A stretch of DNA of 57,950 nucleotides from Chthoniobacterales bacterium (lineage in GTDB: Bacteria; Verrucomicrobiota; Verrucomicrobiia; Chthoniobacterales; JACTMZ01): NCBI GenBank assembly GCA_018883245.1, contig VEQL01000015.1, forward strand, positions 1-57,950. The letters are read 5' to 3'. A model generated the notes under the pieces. The model did no database searches. It saw only the letters and a list, made by a program, of their open reading frames with translations, and was not told the origin of the DNA. The position numbers and the translations under genes are program-made. This document shows, piece by piece, positions 37,305 to 45,241 of the stretch; the stretch's first letter is position 1, and the number at the start of each line of letters is the position of its first letter.

Positions 37305-37348
37305 GGCTTTCGCGCGATTAGCTCAGTGGTAGAGCGCTTGCTTCACAC
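37305..37348 (+). repeat. Left attachment site (attL), 44-bp direct repeat
   Basis: These 44 bases are identical to 45163-45206. They comprise 7 bases of upstream sequence (GGCTTTC) plus the first 37 nucleotides of tRNA-Val, ending at the last base of the anticodon loop. The base before and the base after differ between copies, so the repeat boundaries are exact. Confidence 0.92.
37312..37348 (+). pseudogene. tRNA-Val 5' half, truncated copy
   Basis: Exactly the first 37 nucleotides of tRNA-Val(CAC): acceptor 5' strand, D-arm, 5' side of the anticodon stem and the entire anticodon loop. From 37349 the sequence is unrelated, so no anticodon stem, T-arm or acceptor 3' strand exists. It lies directly behind the presumed original promoter and may still be transcribed into the element. 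Confidence 0.9.
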
Positions 37349-37374
37349 CCCCTCGGGCCGAATTTTCGCCAACA

Positions 37375-37503
37375 TTTCCCGAGACAATCCCGAGCGCATC
37401 GCGGCCTTTCAAACACCTTTGCGCGACCAAAATTTTGCGCGGGATGTTTGTCATAAACCATTCCCGACATTTCCCGACATGAAGCCGAAAAAATGCTGTC
37501 GGG
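37375..37503 (+). repeat. Short repeats in the left end of the element (candidate arm-type sites)
   Basis: The 276 gene-free bases 37349-37624 hold TTCCCGACAT twice in tandem (37461-37470 and 37471-37480), related copies CCCGA at 37378-37382 and 37389-37393, and the inverted form TGTCGGG at 37497-37503. Repeats close to an attachment site often bind integrase or excisionase. Nothing else was found in this stretch. Confidence 0.4.
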
Positions 37504-37624
37504 TGATAAAACGGGTGAAAAGGTAAGGCGCTTACGTTCGCCGCAAGTGAGTTAACAATCCGAGACAGCGGACGCATCGGAAAAGCGTTTCTTGCGCGAT
37601 CCTCGCGCGAAGATTTGGGCAGCT

Positions 37625-37930
37625 TCAGCCGATTTGCGGCATGCGCTTCCAAGTCCGCAGCCAGCGCATCAGATAGCGGGGTGCAACGATCATATCGGCC
37701 ACAAGCGCGACCAGCGCGGCGGCCACGGGTGCGAGCCGGTAGCGCATACGCTGGCGCGCCTCGGCAATTTCGTCGCGCTCGCAGACATAGACGGGCGGGT
37801 GGTCTTGCGACTTCATGACGGGCGCGTAGAGTTGGCGCGCGCGTTGTTCGAGTTGTGCGAGATTATCCAACATGGTCGGAAGGTTTGCAGGGGAGCGCTT
37901 ATGCGGACTATCGCTCACGGCGTGACTCAC
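37625..37930 (-). CDS. Small membrane protein at the left end of the element
   Basis: A 101-residue protein beginning (with GTG as start) VSHAVSDSPHKRSPANLPTM and containing a charged helical middle and one hydrophobic helix (LAPVAAALVALVADMIVAP) near the C-terminus, ending in a basic tail. The GTG overlaps the stop of the preceding small reading frame (GTGA); ATG at 37873 is an alternative giving 82 residues. No family is recognised. A holin-like or host-membrane role is conceivable but unsupported. It is the last gene of the leftward chain. Confidence 0.5.
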   Translation of the reverse strand: MSHAVSDSPHKRSPANLPTMLDNLAQLEQRARQLYAPVMKSQDHPPVYVCERDEIAEARQRMRYRLAPVAAALVALVADMIVAPRYLMRWLRTWKRMPQIG

Positions 37931-38025
37931 GAAAGCCGCCGTTTGACGCGATTTGATACCGCCAACGGCCTCCGCTTTCCGCAACCGGGCCACTCGGCCC
38001 ATCCTGCAAATTCCTTGGTGTTCAT
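37927..38025 (-). CDS. Very small reading frame in the coupled chain
   Basis: A 32-residue frame starting MNTKEFAGWAEWPGC and ending in a basic stretch (RVKRRLS). Its ATG overlaps the upstream stop (TGATG) and its stop overlaps the next start (GTGA). The coupling is the only argument that it is translated; the peptide matches nothing I know and may merely relay ribosomes. Confidence 0.3.
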   Translation of the reverse strand: MNTKEFAGWAEWPGCGKRRPLAVSNRVKRRLS

Positions 38026-38192
38026 CAGCGCCCCAAAGTATCCAAAGGATTTTCGCCCATGCCGACGATGGTGTCGGCGGGCGCTTCGACATTCTTCTCG
38101 GCCTGCCCTTTATCGGCCTTCTTCGCCTTCTCCCGCGCGTCGAGTTTCGCCAAGAGTTCCTCGGCCTTGGGTGTGAGCTTCCAAGTCTTCAT
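38025..38192 (-). CDS. Small charged protein of the element
   Basis: A 55-residue protein beginning MKTWKLTPKAEELLAKLDAR, rich in Lys, Glu and Ala and probably a single helix, ending with PADTIVGMGENPLDTLGR. The start overlaps the upstream gene stop as ATGA. No family recognised. The regular codon pattern and the coupling make it likely to be real despite its size. Confidence 0.5.
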   Translation of the reverse strand: MKTWKLTPKAEELLAKLDAREKAKKADKGQAEKNVEAPADTIVGMGENPLDTLGR

Positions 38193-38482
38193 CCGAACAA
38201 AGGTCTCATGGGTTTCGCCGGTGCGGCCTCGCGCCGTGCCTCGGCTCGCGCTGCGGCAGCGTCACGGCCCCGGCGCGCGGCCTTGGGTGAATCGGCCCAC
38301 TCGCTTTTTGCGCGCACGATTGCGGGCTTTGCTGCCGGCGGCGTGACCGGACGCGCGGCCAATTTCGTCGCCGACTGGCCGGCGATGAGTCGCAGCGCGC
38401 TGTCTTCGTGTGTCGGCGTGTTGAGTTTGTTGCAGGCAATCATGCGGCTGGCCTTGGTGGTGTCGATGAGTCGGGTTTTCAT
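38189..38482 (-). CDS. Small basic Ala/Arg-rich protein of the element
   Basis: A 97-residue protein starting MKTRLIDTTKASRMIACNKL; the C-terminal half is Ala/Arg/Lys-rich and low complexity (ARRGRDAAAARAEARREAAP). The start overlaps the upstream stop (ATGA) and has a GGGGAGG ribosome-binding site 5 bases upstream. Function unknown; the positive charge suggests nucleic-acid binding. Confidence 0.55.
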   Translation of the reverse strand: MKTRLIDTTKASRMIACNKLNTPTHEDSALRLIAGQSATKLAARPVTPPAAKPAIVRAKSEWADSPKAARRGRDAAAARAEARREAAPAKPMRPLFG

Positions 38483-39060
38483 TTGGCCTCCCCGGCAACG
38501 ATTTCATGGAATCCGAATCCCGGCAGACCGATAAGACCGGCAGCCCCTTCGCCGTCACGGACAAGACCTTCTATGCGGTCGAGTTCTCGGATGATGACGC
38601 CGATATTCGTGCGCCACTTTTCGGAATCAAAAGCAGGCTCGCCAAGTGCGGACAAGATGCTGCGATGTTGCTCTTGGATTTTCTCGCCCGCGCGCAGGAC
38701 GGCGGGTTTCGCCTTCTCCGCGAACGACAAGAACAAATCGAGATTGCCCAGGGCGGCGCGGCGGCGTGCGGCCTCACGGACGGCATACACCTCTCGGGCT
38801 TTGGCGGCGTATCCGGCGCGGCCTCCGTGGTCCCAGAGTTTGCGCTCGGCGGTGGTGTCGCCGTTCACTGCCGAAGCGAAAAGTTGGTCCGCTTCCACGA
38901 CGGCGTGGTCGGGATGCGCCTCGTCGCGGGCCTTTGTGAGTTGAATGTCCATCTCGGCAGCTTGGCGCAAAGCCGGGATGAGGGATTTGATGGCAGGGCC
39001 AACTTCGGCGGCGATGAAGGCCTCGGGCTGGATGATGGTGATGGTTGTTTGTTTTTTCAT
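38479..39060 (-). CDS. Helical protein of unknown function (element)
   Basis: A 193-residue soluble, mostly helical protein (MKKQTTITIIQPEAFIAAEV at the start), with Ala/Glu/Arg-rich amphipathic stretches that could form coiled coils and a Gly-rich C-terminus (GAAGLIGLPGFGFHEIV). It begins 4 bases after the Nu1-like gene and overlaps the next gene by ATGA. Pairing with a terminase-small-subunit-like gene hints at DNA packaging or head association, but no motif supports this. Confidence 0.55.
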   Translation of the reverse strand: MKKQTTITIIQPEAFIAAEVGPAIKSLIPALRQAAEMDIQLTKARDEAHPDHAVVEADQLFASAVNGDTTAERKLWDHGGRAGYAAKAREVYAVREAARRRAALGNLDLFLSFAEKAKPAVLRAGEKIQEQHRSILSALGEPAFDSEKWRTNIGVIIRELDRIEGLVRDGEGAAGLIGLPGFGFHEIVAGEAK

Positions 39061-39064
39061 GCGG

Positions 39065-39700
39065 TTATTTTGTCGGGTTGAAAATGTCGGGCGCGGGTGC
39101 GGCCATGACGGCGGTTTTCACTTGCGCCATGGTTTGCTCGGCTTGGAAGTCGGCGGGGTCGGGCGAATTTTCCTTAATGAACTTGCCGAATTGCGCGATG
39201 GCCTCGCTTACCATTTCCCGCGCGGATGTCGGGTTCCACGTCTCTGGAAATTGCTCGATTTTGCGGAGTCGGTCGATGAGCAGGCCGATGGTTTCGTTGA
39301 AGCCTCGGACGAACAGGTCAGACGGGACGAGATGCTTCGCGGCCACGGCGGCGGCCACGGCGGCTTGCTTGGCTTCCTCGCTCATGCGCAGGGCTTGGAG
39401 ATAATCGCGGCTCGCGCGGCCAATGGTGCGAACGTCCCCGGTGCGCGCGGCGTCAAGCAGGACACAAAAACAAAGGTTCTCGGTCGCCGTGGTGCGCTCG
39501 AAGGTGCTGACGGCCTTGGCGTAGTCGTCGGGTTGCGTTGCGACGAGCATTATGGTGAAGGATTTGCGCCGTTGCTTGGCACGGGAGAGTCGCCATTGCG
39601 CGGCGGCTTCGACCGAGTCGCAGGGCATCCCGTTTTGCGCGAGACGGGAGACGGCGGAAACCGAGATTCCCAGTCCGGCGGCGATTTGCTTTTGCGTCAT
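39065..39700 (-). CDS. Nu1/terminase-small-subunit-like HTH protein
   Basis: A 211-residue protein opening with a helix-turn-helix, MTQKQIAAGLGISVSAVSRL, followed by QNGMP and a hydrophobic-A-A-x-W segment. This 'HTH + GMP + AAxxW' layout is that of lambda Nu1, the small subunit that recognises cos/pac DNA. The remaining 150 residues are helical and not recognisable. The start at 39700 gives the domain start but lacks a good ribosome-binding site; an in-frame ATG at 39829, with a weak AAGG site, would add 43 unconvincing residues. It is the only gene of the chain separated from its predecessor by a real gap. Confidence 0.5.
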   Translation of the reverse strand: MTQKQIAAGLGISVSAVSRLAQNGMPCDSVEAAAQWRLSRAKQRRKSFTIMLVATQPDDYAKAVSTFERTTATENLCFCVLLDAARTGDVRTIGRASRDYLQALRMSEEAKQAAVAAAVAAKHLVPSDLFVRGFNETIGLLIDRLRKIEQFPETWNPTSAREMVSEAIAQFGKFIKENSPDPADFQAEQTMAQVKTAVMAAPAPDIFNPTK

Positions 39701-39715
39701 GCCCTTGGGGGAGTT

Positions 39716-39725
39716 GTCAATTGAC
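39716..39725. promoter_or_regulatory. Palindrome before the Nu1-like gene
   Basis: GTCAATTGAC is a perfect 10-bp palindrome 15 bases upstream of the Nu1-like ATG at 39700, inside an AT-rich patch and overlapping a TTGACA on the minus strand. It lies in the single 139-base gap of the leftward chain, the natural place for a second promoter and operator. Confidence 0.35.
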
Positions 39726-39839
39726 CGATGAGCAAAAGAATTGAAATTTTCGCCAAAACGTAGCGAGTCGCGCTGCTCTGGCGCTCTGGCGGCTGAGAAG
39801 ACTCCTGACCCCGTCCCCCTGCGGCCCATCGGCTCGCCT

Positions 39840-40685
39840 TCATGGATTGCACGAGGCCAGCGCCTCGACGCGGGCCTGCGTTGCAGTGCTGACGTTTGCC
39901 TCTTTTGCGCGGGCTGCGCGGCCCTTGGCGCGGTCTTGAGAAGGATGTTGTTCATCTTGAACAACATCTTTCCTCCGCTCTCCTTTCGCGGCGTGCGGAA
40001 CACCAGCCATAGCCTCGCTCCGCTTCCGGTTCGCCTCGGCATCAATGTCCTTGCGCTTCCCGCTCGCCCAATACCGCAGCGCGGCCTGCCGGCTACGCTC
40101 GACCGCCTTCTCGCCTCGAAGGAGTGAAGAGAATTGCCCGAGCTTGAGCGCATCGCGCAGCCTTTTTGCGCGCAGGGATGTAGCCGCCCGACACTCGCCG
40201 AGCCGTCGCCCGAGTTCGGCCAGCGGGACACCGGCCAAGGCGGGGCAGCCGATTAGCCACGCCATGACCAGCAACCGACGTCCGGCCTCATCTGTCACAG
40301 TCTCGAAGGAAGTGGCACTTTCGGTTCTGGAGGGCAAGAGCGCGTCGATGATTGTCCGCAGGGCATAAGCGGCGATAGGCGCCGCCGCCCGTATAACCTC
40401 GGGGTCATGATCTTCCGGCAGTGGTTCCTCGCGGCGTGCCACCTGCTCGCGAACGTGTTCCTCGCCTCCCAACATTTCGGCCAAGTCCTTCTTGTTGCCC
40501 GTGCTTCGCACCTCGGGCATATCGCGCAGGAACACCTCGGCCCGCTTTTCGGGCGACCACTGATCCCAATTCCGGCGGGCGGCTTCGGGGTCGATCAATA
40601 TGACGCTGGCCGCCGTGTCGGCGTCGAGGCCTGCCACGAAGGACAGAACCTCGGGGTCAATCGGGGTGGCGGTTGTCTGGCTCAA
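39840..40685 (-). CDS. Protein of unknown function (element)
   Basis: A 281-residue protein of unknown function. The TTG start at 40685 is well supported: it overlaps the upstream stop as TTGA and has GGAGG 7 bases upstream; ATG starts at 40709 and 40745 would overlap the upstream gene more. The N-terminal half is acidic (ASVILIDPEAARRNWDQWSP), a central helical region contains a possible HTH (LAELGRRLGECRAATSLRAK), and the last 80 residues are Lys/Arg/Ala-rich and probably disordered. A DNA-binding or DNA-packaging role is a guess. Confidence 0.6.
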   Translation of the reverse strand: MSQTTATPIDPEVLSFVAGLDADTAASVILIDPEAARRNWDQWSPEKRAEVFLRDMPEVRSTGNKKDLAEMLGGEEHVREQVARREEPLPEDHDPEVIRAAAPIAAYALRTIIDALLPSRTESATSFETVTDEAGRRLLVMAWLIGCPALAGVPLAELGRRLGECRAATSLRAKRLRDALKLGQFSSLLRGEKAVERSRQAALRYWASGKRKDIDAEANRKRSEAMAGVPHAAKGERRKDVVQDEQHPSQDRAKGRAARAKEANVSTATQARVEALASCNP

Positions 40686-41131
40686 CGCAGAACCTCCAAG
40701 GCCTGCCATTGGCCGCTTGCTGGCAGGATTCGCTCGACCATCCATCCGTTGCCGTAATCGGCAAGGTCAACGTCCATCACGCTCCCGTTGCGCTCGGCGA
40801 GGCGCACCCCGTCGAGGATCGGCCCGCGCATAACGCCGGCCTCGACGCCATCGTTGAACGCGACGAATCCCTCGGCGCGGTGAGGCGTGACTTTCTCGAC
40901 TTGGACTCGGCGCAACTTTCCCGTGCGGATCGGCGGTGATGTCGGCGGTTCGAGGCGACGATATAGCCGCCTTCTTTCATTGGGCACACTCGGCCTTGTT
41001 CTTTCACCTTCAATGTGTGCCGTGCCCGTGCCCCTGTCTAAAGACAGGGGGCACGTGGGCACACTGCTTTCACTGCGCCCGTGGGCACGTTGTGGGCACG
41101 TTGTGGGCACAGGGGCACGCATGGCCGTCAT
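40682..41131 (-). CDS. Unknown small protein containing the iteron region in its 5' part
   Basis: A 149-residue frame whose ATG overlaps the helicase stop (ATGA) with GGGAGG 8 bases upstream, so the start is well supported. Its first 50 codons run through a cluster of short DNA repeats and a palindrome and give a Pro/Thr/Arg-rich, unstructured peptide. The C-terminal 75 residues (from about GKLRRVQVEKVTPH to QWQALEVLR) look like a compact globular domain. It may be a small replication accessory; alternatively a shorter product starts downstream of the repeats. Confidence 0.5.
   Translation of the reverse strand: MTAMRAPVPTTCPQRAHGRSESSVPTCPLSLDRGTGTAHIEGERTRPSVPNERRRLYRRLEPPTSPPIRTGKLRRVQVEKVTPHRAEGFVAFNDGVEAGVMRGPILDGVRLAERNGSVMDVDLADYGNGWMVERILPASGQWQALEVLR
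41031..41050. repeat. Nine-base inverted repeat next to the iterons
   Basis: CCCCTGTCT and AGACAGGGG are perfect arms around an AA centre. No T-run is present on either side, so it is not a simple terminator. Its position directly beside the repeat cluster suggests an origin-associated structure or protein-binding site. Confidence 0.45.
41055..41110. repeat. Iteron-like GTGGGCAC repeats, candidate replication origin
   Basis: GTGGGCAC occurs at 41055-41062, 41081-41088, 41092-41099 and 41103-41110. The last three are in tandem with an 11-bp period (GTGGGCACGTT), one DNA turn, so a protein would contact one face. A further TGGGCACACT at 40981-40990 repeats the 10 bases at 41056-41065. The cluster lies just downstream of the element's helicase gene, where satellite and plasmid origins often lie. 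Confidence 0.5.
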
Positions 41132-42690
41132 ACCGCCAACCTCCCGCCGTTAATTTCGCGGTAGGGCCGTTTGATTACGTGCATGTTCGCCGAGCCTTGT
41201 TTCTCGACGGAAAGGTGGCCGTCCTGTTTGAGCATCGCCACGGCCTTATCGACGTAGCCGTGATTGCCAAGATCCCGCAGGCTGCGGGTGGACTGCGGCC
41301 CGTTTTTTTCGATAAACTCGCTGATCTTTTGCATCAGCCCCGTGGGCTTCCACGATTCCTTGGTCTCGTTCTGCGGTTGCTCGAAGCGGACATCGGGCCG
41401 CCCCTCTTCGTCATGGCCGAAATGAAGATCGGTCACGATATGACCAACAGGGCCGACTCCGCCGTTGCGATCCTTCGCCACAACCAATCGAACAAAGCCG
41501 TCTGTTTCGGGAGAGTAGGGCTTCCTCAGCTTGGCCTCATAGACCACGCCATCATATCGGCCCATCTTCGCCCCGCTTCCACGGGGCCAGCGCCCCCGGC
41601 TTTCGCTGTCCTTGGCAACGTGGTCGGAAATCAGAACGGAGCATCCCGCCTCGACAAACAAGCGCATCCGCTCGCGGAAGAATTGCAAGACCTCGGCGGG
41701 CTTGTCCTCGCTCAATGCCTCGGCGGCCAATCCTTCGGCCAATCCATCGAGAACAACGAGAGAGGGCTTGTGCTTCTTCGCCCAAGCATGGAGCGCGGCA
41801 AACTCGGACGGCTCGGGGTTCTGGACGTAGTGGAAACGCTCGGACAGGTCGGACTCACGGCCGCCAAGGGCAACAAAGCGCGAGCCGATGCCGCGCGGGT
41901 TGTCCTCGGGGTCGAGATAGAGAACGTGCAAGCCGTCCTGCATGACCTCCGCGCAGATACAAAGCGCGATGTTCGTTTTGCCGACACCAGGCTCGCCGTG
42001 GATTTCATTGATGCGCCCCGGGTAGAGCAGAAAACGGCCCTCGTCATATTGGCACAAGCTCGGCATCTCCCGCTTGAATCCCTCGGCGATGAGCGCGGAG
42101 AAGTCGGCAAAGCGCGGTTCGGCTGTCGCTCCATTGATCTCGCTCTCCCGCTTGTCTAACTCGGCCTTTGCCTCGTTGAAGTCGGCGTCGATGATTCTGC
42201 GCTCGGCATAGTCCGCAGCCAGCGCGCGCCGTTTGCGGTCAATGCTGGCGGCCAGAAGTTCGCGCACGTGATGAAGCAGGACGCTCGGGCCAATGCCCTC
42301 GGCCAGCGTGACCAGATCCAGCACGCCGGCGGCGCCTTGGCCGATCTTGTCGGCCAGCCCCGCCACCTCCAGTTGTCGCTGGATGTCGGCGAAGTTCATC
42401 GCCCCCGGTGTCCACTTGTCGGCGTGGTCGCGCAGCCAGAGCATGACGGCGCCGTGTTGCGGTGCGTTGAAATCGTCAATGCGGAGTTCGACGCCAGCTT
42501 CATCGAGCGGGGCGAATCCATTCACAATGATCCCGCCGAGCACGATGCGGTCGAGTTCGACATCGCAATCGACGGCGCGAGCGGCTTTCAATGTGCGCTT
42601 GGGCTGCTTGACCTTCTCGCCTTCGTCCATGAAAGCCGTATCCATGAAGGCCTGATAGCCGATCTCTTGGGTGCCCGTTATGTCCCTCAC
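41128..42690 (-). CDS. Replicative helicase-like protein (DnaB-N + RepA-type ATPase)
   Basis: A 520-residue replication protein of the element. Residues about 40-165 resemble the DnaB N-terminal helical domain (ELDRIVLGGIIVNGFAPL ... FNAPQHGAVMLWLRDHADKW). A RecA-fold ATPase of the RepA/AAA_25 kind follows with Walker A GEPGVGKTNIAL, a Walker B-like SLVVLDGLAEGL and DHVAKDSESRGRWPRGSGAK. The C-terminus forms a winged-helix-like segment (LMQKISEFIEKNGPQSTRSL). The GTG start at 42690 overlaps the upstream stop (GTGA) and has AAGGAGG 7 bases before it. No primase motif is visible, so priming must come from elsewhere. Confidence 0.78.
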   Translation of the reverse strand: MRDITGTQEIGYQAFMDTAFMDEGEKVKQPKRTLKAARAVDCDVELDRIVLGGIIVNGFAPLDEAGVELRIDDFNAPQHGAVMLWLRDHADKWTPGAMNFADIQRQLEVAGLADKIGQGAAGVLDLVTLAEGIGPSVLLHHVRELLAASIDRKRRALAADYAERRIIDADFNEAKAELDKRESEINGATAEPRFADFSALIAEGFKREMPSLCQYDEGRFLLYPGRINEIHGEPGVGKTNIALCICAEVMQDGLHVLYLDPEDNPRGIGSRFVALGGRESDLSERFHYVQNPEPSEFAALHAWAKKHKPSLVVLDGLAEGLAAEALSEDKPAEVLQFFRERMRLFVEAGCSVLISDHVAKDSESRGRWPRGSGAKMGRYDGVVYEAKLRKPYSPETDGFVRLVVAKDRNGGVGPVGHIVTDLHFGHDEEGRPDVRFEQPQNETKESWKPTGLMQKISEFIEKNGPQSTRSLRDLGNHGYVDKAVAMLKQDGHLSVEKQGSANMHVIKRPYREINGGRLAV

Positions 42691-42983
42691 GCCCGCACCT
42701 CCTTTTTGCCCTCGCGGGCCAGAGACAAAAGTTCGTTGCCTGTGAGCCAAGGCGGGAGCAGGTCGCAGCGCGCTTGTTGAACCGCATCAACAAAGCGGGC
42801 CAGCATCGCCATGCGCTCCCGGTCACGCTCGCTGCCGAGGGCCGAGAACAGGACATAGTGCCGCAGCCATTGGCCTCGCAGAAAATTGACAACCTCGCCG
42901 AGGGCATCGGGTTCCTGTGGCAAGGTTCCATGCGTTGCGGCGGTCTTCGGGCCGCCGTTTCGTTTTTCGTCGTGCGGTTTCAT
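42687..42983 (-). CDS. Small unknown protein of the element
   Basis: A 98-residue protein starting MKPHDEKRNGGPKTAATHGT, helical in its second half (GEVVNFLRGQWLRHYVLFSA and ERMAMLARFVDAVQQARC). The ATG overlaps the upstream stop (ATGA) with GGAGG 7 bases before it; the stop overlaps the helicase start (GTGA). No family is recognised. Sitting directly before the helicase it may be a replication accessory such as a loader. Confidence 0.55.
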   Translation of the reverse strand: MKPHDEKRNGGPKTAATHGTLPQEPDALGEVVNFLRGQWLRHYVLFSALGSERDRERMAMLARFVDAVQQARCDLLPPWLTGNELLSLAREGKKEVRA

Positions 42984-43186
42984 TTCGTTTCCTCCAAGAA
43001 GCGCTCGATCTCCGTGCGCGACCATCGGGGATGTCGCAGGGCGCGGGATGGTTTCAACAATCCGCGCTTTTCCAGCCTCCATAGTGTGACCAAGGAAATT
43101 CCGAGAGCCTGCGCGGTTTCCTCGGCGTTATAGGCCAAGCGCTCGACGGGCGCGGGCCTTGGGTCGGTTGTGGCAGGGGCGCTCAT
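42980..43186 (-). CDS. Excisionase/AlpA-type HTH protein
   Basis: A 68-residue DNA-binding protein with a MerR-like winged helix: YNAEETAQALGISLVTLWRL, EKRGLLKPSRALRHPRW and TEIERFLEET. This is the HTH_17 layout of excisionases and AlpA regulators. Start and stop both overlap neighbours by ATGA, and GGAGGG lies 6 bases upstream. It probably directs excision or switches on the element's operon. Confidence 0.72.
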   Translation of the reverse strand: MSAPATTDPRPAPVERLAYNAEETAQALGISLVTLWRLEKRGLLKPSRALRHPRWSRTEIERFLEETK

Positions 43187-43374
43187 TTTGCACCCTCCGC
43201 TATGCGCTGAACGGAATTGCGGGAGATTCGGACAACCCCTCCGACCTTGATCGCGGCGAGGATGCCCGTCTTTATCCACGCGCGAATCGTTCGCTCGGTG
43301 ACGTTGAAGGTTTTGGCCGTTTCGGAGACGGTCGCGAAAGGCCCACTGTTTGCATGAAACGTAGCGTGCTTCAT
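43183..43374 (-). CDS. Excisionase-family HTH protein, first gene of the leftward operon
   Basis: A 63-residue HTH protein: ATVSETAKTFNVTERTIRAW then IKTGILAAIKVGGVVRISRN, a standard excisionase-family winged helix with the recognition helix and the beta wing. It opens the leftward chain and is divergent from the HTH regulator at 43443. Two such proteins in tandem may split excision and regulation between them. Confidence 0.72.
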   Translation of the reverse strand: MKHATFHANSGPFATVSETAKTFNVTERTIRAWIKTGILAAIKVGGVVRISRNSVQRIAEGAK

Positions 43375-43407
43375 GCCTTTGGTATTGGTGTCAAATAAAA
43401 TGTCCGC

Positions 43408-43436
43408 TTTACAGAGACAGAGACATGTGTTATGTC
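43408..43436 (+). promoter_or_regulatory. Regulator promoter with overlapping operator
   Basis: TTTACA (43408-43413) and an extended -10 TGTTATGTC (43428-43436) are 17 bases apart. The predicted start falls at or near the ATG at 43443, so the message could be leaderless. GACAT (43422-43426) and ATGTC (43432-43436) make an inverted repeat over the -10, and ATGTCCG occurs at 43400-43406 and 43432-43438. This is a likely autoregulatory switch between the divergent genes. Confidence 0.4.
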
Positions 43437-43442
43437 CGTTTC

Positions 43443-43964
43443 ATGGCCTGCCAATACCTACAAACAATCGAGAGCGTTTATCGCGTGTCCCAGCGCACCG
43501 TCCGACGATGGTGCGAGGAAGGGTGCATACCCGGGGCCTATCGCCCATCCCCCCGAAAACAGTGGCGCGTCCGAAAGCCTTTAGACCTTGATTCATGGCA
43601 AAGCGCGGTGGTCAGCAAGGTCGGCGAGCCGCCGCAGGTTAAAGAGGACATCCGTAAAGAGGGCTTTCGCGTGAAGGTCGAGATACGCGGCGAAGTTGAG
43701 AGCTGGCCTCAGGATCACCGCTCCCGTTTTGGGGTTGCTTTGGTCGATGCCTTGGTGGCGCTCGTCCGCCTCGATATGCTTGAGCCGATTGAATACGATC
43801 CGACAAGGAAACATCCAGGCACACGCGACGGCCTGCGCCTTGGTCTGGTCTTTAAGTCGGGCAAAGGGCGCGACCAATACGGAAACACAGCCCTTGAGGC
43901 TGGTCTTGTGCGCGCCTTGAAACGTCACGGAATCGCCGTGCCAAGCGGAATCCGCGTTAATTAG
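43443..43964 (+). CDS. HTH regulator of the element (candidate repressor)
   Basis: A 173-residue protein with an N-terminal helix-turn-helix (QTIESVYRVSQRTVRRWCEE followed by GCIPGAYR) and a C-terminal domain of about 110 residues that I do not recognise (VALVDALVALVRLDMLEPIE; RDQYGNTALEAGLVRALKRH). It is the only rightward gene of the element and is divergent from the leftward operon, the usual place for the lysogeny-type repressor. An in-frame ATG at 43425 would add 6 residues. Its stop overlaps the integrase stop on the other strand. Confidence 0.65.
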   Translation: MACQYLQTIESVYRVSQRTVRRWCEEGCIPGAYRPSPRKQWRVRKPLDLDSWQSAVVSKVGEPPQVKEDIRKEGFRVKVEIRGEVESWPQDHRSRFGVALVDALVALVRLDMLEPIEYDPTRKHPGTRDGLRLGLVFKSGKGRDQYGNTALEAGLVRALKRHGIAVPSGIRVN

Positions 43965-45079
43965 AGTGCGACTGCCGCCTGCTGCTGCGCCAACTCGACC
44001 ACGTTTTCCGGCTTCGCTCCCAGCATCGCGGCCATCCGTAGCGAGTGGGAAAGATTCACCTCGGCTTGATAGGTCTTGAGGACAAGCGCGCCGCCGTCTC
44101 GGTGGCCTTGCCATGCGGCCACGGTCGGCGCGTCGATACCCGCCCGCAGGCTGCGGGTGATATGGAAGCGGCGAAGGGATCGCGGCTCGAAGTAGGGGAA
44201 TTTTAAGCGCTTGCAGGCTCCGTGCATTGCCATGCGGCAGTTGTCCTGCGGCAGCAAGCGCGCCTCCGGTTCCTCGGGCATATTCTTCAGCCTGCGCTCG
44301 ATGATCGGACGCGCATCGGGGAAAATCGGGACGGTGAATGTTTGTGAGGTCTTGCGGCGAAAAATTCGGATGATTCCGGCTTGAAGGTCGATGTCCTGCC
44401 GCCGGATCGCCGAGAGTTCGGCCTGCCCGAGGCCAAGGGTTCCCGCCAGTTCCACAAAGTCGGCAGAATCGTTGCACCCGTGACCGTTGCTTTTTTGCGA
44501 GCGTATATCGTCCACAAGCGCGCGGAATTGTTCCTCGGTCGGCGTGTTGCGGATGGGTTTGGAAATCTTGGCATATTTGATGCCGTCCAGCGGCGAGCGT
44601 TCGATCACGCCATCGGCAACGGCCAAGTCGAAAAACCTGCGCGCCGTGGTCAGAAGGTGATTGATCGAGGACGCCGAGAGGGATTCACGGAAGGGTTTCA
44701 GCCAAGCCAAGACATGACTGCGCTTGATCTTGGAAATCGTGTCAGGCGCATCCTCGGGCCACTGCTCGACCAGTTTGCGGACGTTGAGGCGTTCGCTGTA
44801 GGTGGTCGCCTCCTTGCCGGTGATCAGCGCCTCGAAAGTCTCGCGGTGATCGGCCAGTGTGCGGCGGGAGAGGGTGGGGTCGGTGTTCTCCAACTTGCGC
44901 CGCAAGCCGGTCAGTTTGCGCCTCGCAAGCTCCTTGTCCTCGGTCTCAAGCGACTGTCTGATTTGCTTGCCGCGAAATTTAATCACGGCATAGTATGTCC
45001 CGCCTTTGTAGCGATAGAGACATGCTCCAACTTTCTTCCAAACTGGTGTTTCCTTCGTGGGTTTCTTGGTCTTTCTCAT
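43961..45079 (-). CDS. int: Tyrosine recombinase integrase with non-canonical catalytic residues
   Basis: A 372-residue phage-type integrase next to the attachment tRNA. There are an arm-binding-like N-terminus (YRYKGGTYYAVIKFRGKQIR), a SAM-like core-binding domain, and a catalytic domain. Canonical residues present: beta-hairpin Lys243 (RRKTSQT), Arg303 (PRSLRRFHIT), His326 (WQGHRD) and the nucleophile Tyr337 (LKTYQ). The first catalytic Arg, normally in TGLR-x-SE, is Gly218 in LGLGQAEL, and the His of HxLR is Arg300. The start at 45079 has an AGGA site 8-9 bases upstream; 45115 is the alternative. I have a general memory of similar GLGQAE motifs in other verrucomicrobial integrases. Confidence 0.88.
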   Translation of the reverse strand: MRKTKKPTKETPVWKKVGACLYRYKGGTYYAVIKFRGKQIRQSLETEDKELARRKLTGLRRKLENTDPTLSRRTLADHRETFEALITGKEATTYSERLNVRKLVEQWPEDAPDTISKIKRSHVLAWLKPFRESLSASSINHLLTTARRFFDLAVADGVIERSPLDGIKYAKISKPIRNTPTEEQFRALVDDIRSQKSNGHGCNDSADFVELAGTLGLGQAELSAIRRQDIDLQAGIIRIFRRKTSQTFTVPIFPDARPIIERRLKNMPEEPEARLLPQDNCRMAMHGACKRLKFPYFEPRSLRRFHITRSLRAGIDAPTVAAWQGHRDGGALVLKTYQAEVNLSHSLRMAAMLGAKPENVVELAQQQAAVAL

Positions 45080-45162
45080 GCCAAGAATCCTATAGGGTGC
45101 AAAAACTGGTGACAAACAAGAAAAATGGAAATTACGTATCGTTGCAAGTAGCTGGTAGTTAA

Positions 45163-45206
45163 GGCTTTCGCGCGATTAGCTCAGTGGTAGAGCGCTTGCT
45201 TCACAC
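45163..45206 (+). repeat. Right attachment site (attR), 44-bp direct repeat
   Basis: Identical to 37305-37348. It ends at the last anticodon-loop base of the intact tRNA-Val. Recombination between the copies would excise the element and rejoin the tRNA to the promoter at 37273. Confidence 0.92.
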
Positions 45207-45241
45207 GCAAGAAGTCGCAGGTTCGAACCCTGCATCGCGCA
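45170..45241 (+). tRNA. tRNA-Val (anticodon CAC)
   Basis: A 72-nucleotide class I tRNA: acceptor GCGCGAT/ATCGCGC, D-arm GCTC/GAGC, anticodon stem CTTGC/GCAAG around a loop TTCACAC with anticodon CAC (reads GUG), T-arm GCAGG-TTCGAAC-CCTGC, discriminator A, CCA not encoded. The 5' half up to the anticodon loop is element-derived (inside attR); the 3' half is host sequence. A weak extended -10 (TGGTAGTTA, 45153-45161) lies upstream with no good -35. Confidence 0.96.

Follow-up and report, generated by a model that had tools for sequence, protein, structure and literature searches.

A probable TerS-encoding, capsid-less phage satellite in a tRNA-Val gene of a Chthoniobacterales bacterium

Introduction

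Phage-inducible chromosomal islands (PICIs) are recognized by integrase, replication and master regulator genes in conserved order, by the absence of structural and lytic genes, by a size of ~12-15 kb, by attachment (att) sites that are never occupied by prophages, and by being induced, replicated and packaged with the aid of a helper phage (PMC6092414). Named satellite families come mostly from a small number of cultured groups, to which families from Cyanobacteria and Actinobacteria were added recently (PMC11389934). For Verrucomicrobiota, we found no phage satellite report in the open-access literature (PMC), subscription papers and preprints lying outside the scope of this search; an earlier reading of the DNA letters (the original prediction) had likewise known of none. 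Here, we analyzed a stretch of 57,950 nucleotides, referred to as the window, from a Chthoniobacterales bacterium (contig VEQL01000015.1 of assembly GCA_018883245.1, 2.9 Mb in 84 contigs, genome G000). It contains an island at positions 37305-45206 that is probably a phage satellite of the TerS-encoding (terminase small subunit), capsid-less, PICI-like type.

The island shares with PICIs an integrase, a regulator and a replication module in conserved order as well as the lack of structural and lytic genes, and terS is found in some PICIs, too (PMC6092414). In contrast to the typical 12-15 kb, however, it measures 7.86 kb, and its complete sister islands measure 7.8-9.2 kb. It further differs in its RepA-like AAA helicase, in a regulator that is convergent on the integrase gene (int), and in belonging to an unrelated phylum; the comparison is one of plan. 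Because gene order and gene absence agree with the definition of PICIs and size does not, we call the island PICI-like in its working but do not file it as a PICI. By its gene content, it appears to be a new satellite family.

Two further systems are close. The lambda-helped Escherichia coli PICIs that encode Rpp (EcCICFT073 type) resemble the island in having a TerS-like winged helix-turn-helix (wHTH) protein and in the lambda-type (gpA) terminase, here encoded by the candidate helper described below (PMC9026076). They differ in that no cos sequence common to the island and the phage fragments was found, and in that the island protein is longer than Rpp. The PICMI elements of Vibrionaceae are likewise small and combine int with an AlpA-like and a replication gene, without capsid remodelling genes. 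However, PICMI115 has no terS homologue (PMC10803314), whereas the island has a terS-like gene and a tRNA site. PICMIs are defined by int, alpA, a DUF3987-type primase and insertion at fis; the island lies in tRNA-Val and has no DUF3987-type primase. A relaxase, the mark of integrative mobilizable elements, was not matched in Pfam, PHROGs or NCBIfam scans.

Results

The island is enclosed by forward-strand direct repeats of 44 bp (37305-37348 and 45163-45206) that are identical at 44/44 positions and spaced by 7,858 bp, as the original prediction of perfect repeats around 7.9 kb in tRNA-Val had stated. ARAGORN identified a single intact tRNA-Val(CAC) at 45170-45241 (+), upstream of a nusA-like gene, and the right repeat lies within it. 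Because the repeat spans 7 bp of leader and the tRNA from position 1 to 37 (its 5' half as far as the anticodon loop), the left copy is a truncated tRNA, and the 5' half of the intact tRNA is island-derived together with the DNA upstream of it. In at least five genomes of the genus, the flanks, once joined, could be aligned with no break at the junction (82-83% identity), and there tRNA-Val immediately precedes the nusA-like gene. An unoccupied site therefore exists, and the island is an insertion with defined ends. Its GC content is 60.7%, compared to 61.6% in the remainder of the window. TTCCCGA repeats at 37376, 37461 and 37471 (region 37369-37480, +) are possible arm-type integrase sites, and a similar TTTTCCCGAG occurs immediately inward of the left boundary of the related island L026.

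Gene order was checked against Pfam, PHROGs and NCBIfam. From the int end, it comprises the integrase, a helix-turn-helix (HTH) regulator, two small HTH proteins, orf98, a RepA-like helicase, iterons, a small open reading frame (ORF), orf281, the terS-like gene, orf193 and small ORFs, and the predicted succession of integrase, HTH proteins, helicase and Nu1-like gene was thereby confirmed. Among the ten main proteins, no match to capsid, portal, tail or relaxase families was obtained in the three libraries, and the same scans of the main ORFs revealed no phage structural or lytic genes; orf97 and orf55 were outside these scans. PADLOC matches were at the level of HTH and ATPase domains, with no convincing defence gene, and no cargo gene was found in the island. 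The predicted absence of capsid, relaxase and cargo genes thus stands for the proteins scanned.

The Nu1-like gene (39065-39700, -) encodes a protein of 211 amino acids (aa) that matched PHROG_57, the terminase small subunit family, at 1.8e-8, followed by the next family at 0.009. The N-terminal wHTH DNA-binding domain of the gpNu1/PHROG_57 family is present, and a leave-one-out TerS profile scored 44.7 bits in this DNA-binding half. In the sister island L070, the TerS C-terminus alone matched PHROG_57 at 8e-4. Additionally, a profile built from five satellite TerS proteins was run on relatives of the same order. It matched a phage TerS in L115 (G457 contig 79), a phage contig of a related genus, in the N-terminus (39.9 bits) and separately in the C-terminus (20.2 bits), and in L117 in the C-terminal part (18.2 bits, overlapping the TerL start), compared to 8.8 bits for the best of 1,400 shuffles of C-termini. 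In both contigs, the matched gene precedes a lambda-type large terminase gene (TerL; PHROG_15, 1.3e-111 and 4e-106) and a portal gene, followed in L115 by a head protease and a major head protein (capsid). Taken together, the satellite TerS proteins are thus homologues of phage TerS encoded at its usual position. When profiles were compared directly, the island TerS and the phage TerS group of the genus itself matched in the HTH part only, and a single-protein TerS scan of viral contigs and phage records yielded nothing. Judged from these matches, the window protein may be a TerS or an Rpp-like retargeter of the helper's TerS.

The same plan recurs at tRNA genes of relatives, where the original prediction had proposed to look for it. 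We found three complete islands with exact tRNA repeats, in tRNA-Arg (L068, genome G388, 8.3 kb), tRNA-Phe (L070, G397, 7.8 kb) and tRNA-Gly (L028, G389, 9.2 kb). All carry homologous TerS genes at the end away from int, and their integrases are unrelated. The order in L068 equals that of the window: int, convergent regulator, two HTH genes, replication genes, orf281-like gene, terS and orf193-like gene. Its integrase and replication genes show no recognizable kinship to those of the window; sequence similarity is confined to the TerS-orf193 side and, weakly, orf281 (39840-40685, -; blastp 1e-4, 131 aa). Beside terS, orf193 (38479-39060, -) encodes a satellite-associated protein with a low-confidence, all-helical AlphaFold model (run without alignment). 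It was detected in 3 of the 97 relatives searched, each time in a TerS-bearing island; the homologue in L068 matched at 9e-13, and that in L070 was aligned by position at 21% identity. Two reduced relatives were seen as well: L071, a degenerate element of 3.5 kb in the same tRNA-Arg as L068, and L026 (tRNA-Met, 2.2 kb), which contains little beyond an integrase 47% identical to that of the window. Gene calls outside the window came from a simple hexamer model trained in this analysis, and the genomes of the relatives are mostly draft assemblies, in which binning errors are possible.

Further elements were considered but not counted as satellites. L072 (8022-14310) lies at tRNA-Asp, carries int together with primase-like and AAA genes, and ends early with its contig. 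It has a 198-aa gene in common with the phage-bearing contig L064, and may be either a prophage or a satellite. L074 (9650-19153; G395, tRNA-Pro) and L080 (6429-14757; Spartobacteria LR76) combine int and HTH genes, without capsid genes, with a protein of ~595 aa that was called tape-measure-like by eye, and were set aside on account of this protein. L074 also carries a TerS-like gene (PHROG_57, 0.003).

Candidate helper phages were found in the same genus. In the island's own genome bin, a 4.1-kb contig (G000 contig 76, C76, L066) encodes TerS (PHROG_57, 7.8e-10) and TerL (PHROG_15, 1.1e-79); the profile check of candidate-helper terminase genes covers this fragment. Contigs of G392, G395 and G396 carry TerS and a large-terminase-like gene, in G392 and G395 accompanied by genes that look like portal, protease and head protein by sequence. 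PHROG_2 was discarded as a TerL probe in the genus, since its weak and scattered matches were taken for other ATPases; TerL was found instead as PHROG_15 beside TerS. Phages of the same genus with TerS, gpA-type TerL, portal and capsid genes are the likely helpers, judged by these gene calls. In addition, the HTH_17/AlpA-excisionase type protein, the second HTH protein of the island (42980-43186, -; Pfam HTH_17, 3.9e-8), shares 58% identity over 53 aa with a protein encoded on the phage-bearing contig L064 of G395, a hint of gene exchange.

The replication gene rep (41128-42690, -; 520 aa) is best described as AAA_25/RepA-like (Pfam AAA_25, 1.2e-11; PHROG_239, 1.7e-11). Of the predicted DnaB-N/RepA type, the RepA side was borne out, and the DnaB-like match was weaker. 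Next to rep lie iteron-like GTGGGCAC repeats with a dyad (40982-41118), a candidate replication origin. Nine of the ten GGGCAC/GTGCCC words of the island fall within this region, compared to at most five in any 212-bp window of 500 shuffles; the predicted iterons are real. Rep proteins of related elements are 44-47% identical to that of the island, and a wider family with 41-51% identity occurs in other verrucomicrobial genomes and IMG/VR contigs, among them L078 with apparent phage structural genes. Rep alone is therefore no satellite marker. These relatives came from a genome search and Rep alignment, a single-protein scan with Rep over genome contigs having returned nothing. Another type of Rep-bearing element was seen in Verrucomicrobiaceae (L030, 3450-10924), a metagenome-assembled genome labelled Akkermansia (L083, 5872-14005) and an IMG/VR contig (L077, 8649-14274); in this type, rep is followed by conserved genes of roughly 149-166, 212 and 169 aa. 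A further Rep relative (L025, 9443-12944; G389 contig 42), located next to tRNA-Lys, gave a weak match to Sf6-type TerS (PF20901, 6e-4) and is perhaps a satellite with another TerS type.

Among the remaining genes, the regulator (43425-43964, +; 179 aa) has an HTH_17-like N-terminus below cut-off and occupies the equivalent position in L068. It is divergent from the xis/rep operon, as predicted, but convergent on int, with which it overlaps by 4 bp. The excisionase-family HTH protein (43183-43374, -) scored 37.2 bits against NCBIfam TIGR01764 (cut-off 28.8), and both predicted excisionase-type proteins are hence present. The other ORFs, all on the reverse strand, are orf98 (42687-42983), a small ORF at 40682-40915 (longer reading frame 40682-41131), orf97 (38189-38482), orf55 (38025-38192; coding-like hexamer score) and orf82 (37625-37873), a small protein without convincing family match.

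The integrase (43961-45079, -; 372 aa; Phage_integrase 2.5e-8, PHROG_1 5.5e-43) lacks the catalytic Arg I. Together with relatives at L026:9320-10393, L027:10275-11432 and L032:9911-10972, it forms a clade with Gly at the Arg I position and RxxR instead of HxxR, and the integrases of the window, L026 and L027 have GLGQAE in place of GLRxxE. Alignment to the solved structure of a XerC-like recombinase (4a8e) revealed identical replacements. It is the 3' half of the tRNA that most tRNA-targeting elements duplicate. In all three clade members for which the tRNA was mapped (Val-CAC, Met, Val-TAC), the element is situated on its 5' side. L027 is a second related integrase in the host genome (G000 contig 45, 10275 to contig end), located 5' of tRNA-Val(TAC); the contig ends within this element, beside a 231-aa gene. 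A displaced catalytic arginine is known from IntCTnDOT, and the clade resembles IntCTnDOT-type tyrosine recombinases in having no catalytic arginine at the usual place (PMC8138268). The window integrase differs in its box I sequence GLGQAE, and its clade in the occurrence at tRNA 5' halves; the likeness concerns the vacated arginine position only.

Discussion

We favour a phage satellite because of the TerS homology, the recurrent TerS-bearing plan at other tRNA genes, the TerS/TerL fragment in the same bin and the lack of a relaxase match among the proteins scanned. Some observations weigh against this interpretation. The C-terminal half of the window TerS is at noise level (1.5 bits in the leave-one-out profile versus shuffles of up to 11.3), so that the predicted Nu1-like identity holds for the DNA-binding half and TerL binding is without sequence support. 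The AlphaFold model of TerS (run without alignment) was of low confidence (pLDDT 55), with no fold match. The phage contig of the island's own bin is only 4.1 kb long and could be misbinned. Finally, a co-resident phage with a matching pac or cos site had been envisaged; the terminase genes were found, but the islands and phage fragments have no packaging site in common, as their exact shared words of 14-15 bp are scattered and were taken as chance.

The limits of the TerS homology leave some room for a possible, though considerably less probable, variant, in which the Nu1-like protein is an Rpp-type redirector: it would form a pair with the TerS of the helper and contribute its DNA-binding domain, TerL being recruited by the helper TerS. 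This is a sub-case of the satellite interpretation and compatible with it. The homology is detectable in the DNA-binding half only, and Rpp, the TerS-like wHTH protein of E. coli PICIs, has no C-terminal TerL-binding region (PMC9026076). However, the island protein has 211 aa compared to about 135-154 aa in described Rpps (PMC9026076), and the TerS proteins of the same family in sister islands have a C-terminal segment in common with phage TerS.

A cryptic integrative plasmid or mobilizable element, in which int, rep and iterons would be moved by conjugation or natural uptake and the Nu1-like gene would be a plasmid regulator, is unlikely. The RepA-like helicase and iterons are plasmid-like, and small actinobacterial plasmids carry distant Rep homologues. 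Yet no relaxase was matched in the proteins scanned, and the TerS homology and the recurring TerS-bearing sister islands speak against this reading; the preference of the original prediction for a satellite over a plasmid is strengthened accordingly by the PHROG_57 match, the sister islands and the same-bin phage fragment. A prophage that has lost its structural genes is the least probable origin. In its favour, int, regulator, rep and TerS are all known in prophages, and degenerate islands occur in the genus (L071, 3.5 kb; L026, 2.2 kb). Against it, an equally reduced plan is seen in three more islands (7.8-9.2 kb) that differ in integrase and tRNA site, two of them keeping the satellite-only orf193 beside terS.

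As a phage satellite, the island most likely spreads by hijacking lambda-like phages. Function was deduced from anatomy and homology throughout, and induction, replication and transfer are predictions. The integrase would recombine the 44-bp core, located at the anticodon region of tRNA-Val(CAC), with island sequence replacing the tRNA 5' half and upstream DNA, and excision would restore the tRNA site, the structure of which is seen directly. Once a lambda-like helper enters or is induced, excision may be switched on by the divergent HTH regulator together with the AlpA/excisionase-type proteins. The RepA-like helicase would then replicate the circle from the iterons adjoining rep, and the TerS-like protein would direct the gpA-type large terminase of the helper to island DNA, leading to packaging in helper particles. 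Speculatively, orf193 is a candidate for an additional helper-interfering function.

A broader proposition, which we regard as evenly balanced, is that Verrucomicrobiota carry their own, independently assembled TerS-encoding satellite family, one branch of which, including the island, uses an Arg-I-less integrase to replace the 5' half of the tRNA along with the DNA upstream of it. The same judgement jointly covers promoter replacement, by which the satellite would supply the promoter for an essential tRNA. Position is what suggests this idea; when the island side was scanned for a promoter of the tRNA, no sigma-70 match was obtained on the forward strand.

If the satellite interpretation is true, phage parasitism would reach into another phylum, in which a single environmental verrucomicrobial genus contains several such islands and, in the same genomes, candidate lambda-like helpers. 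It also names genes to examine, namely terS, orf193 and the Arg-I-less integrase. Overall, our results suggest that the piracy of packaging by means of TerS is more general than is apparent from the model systems.

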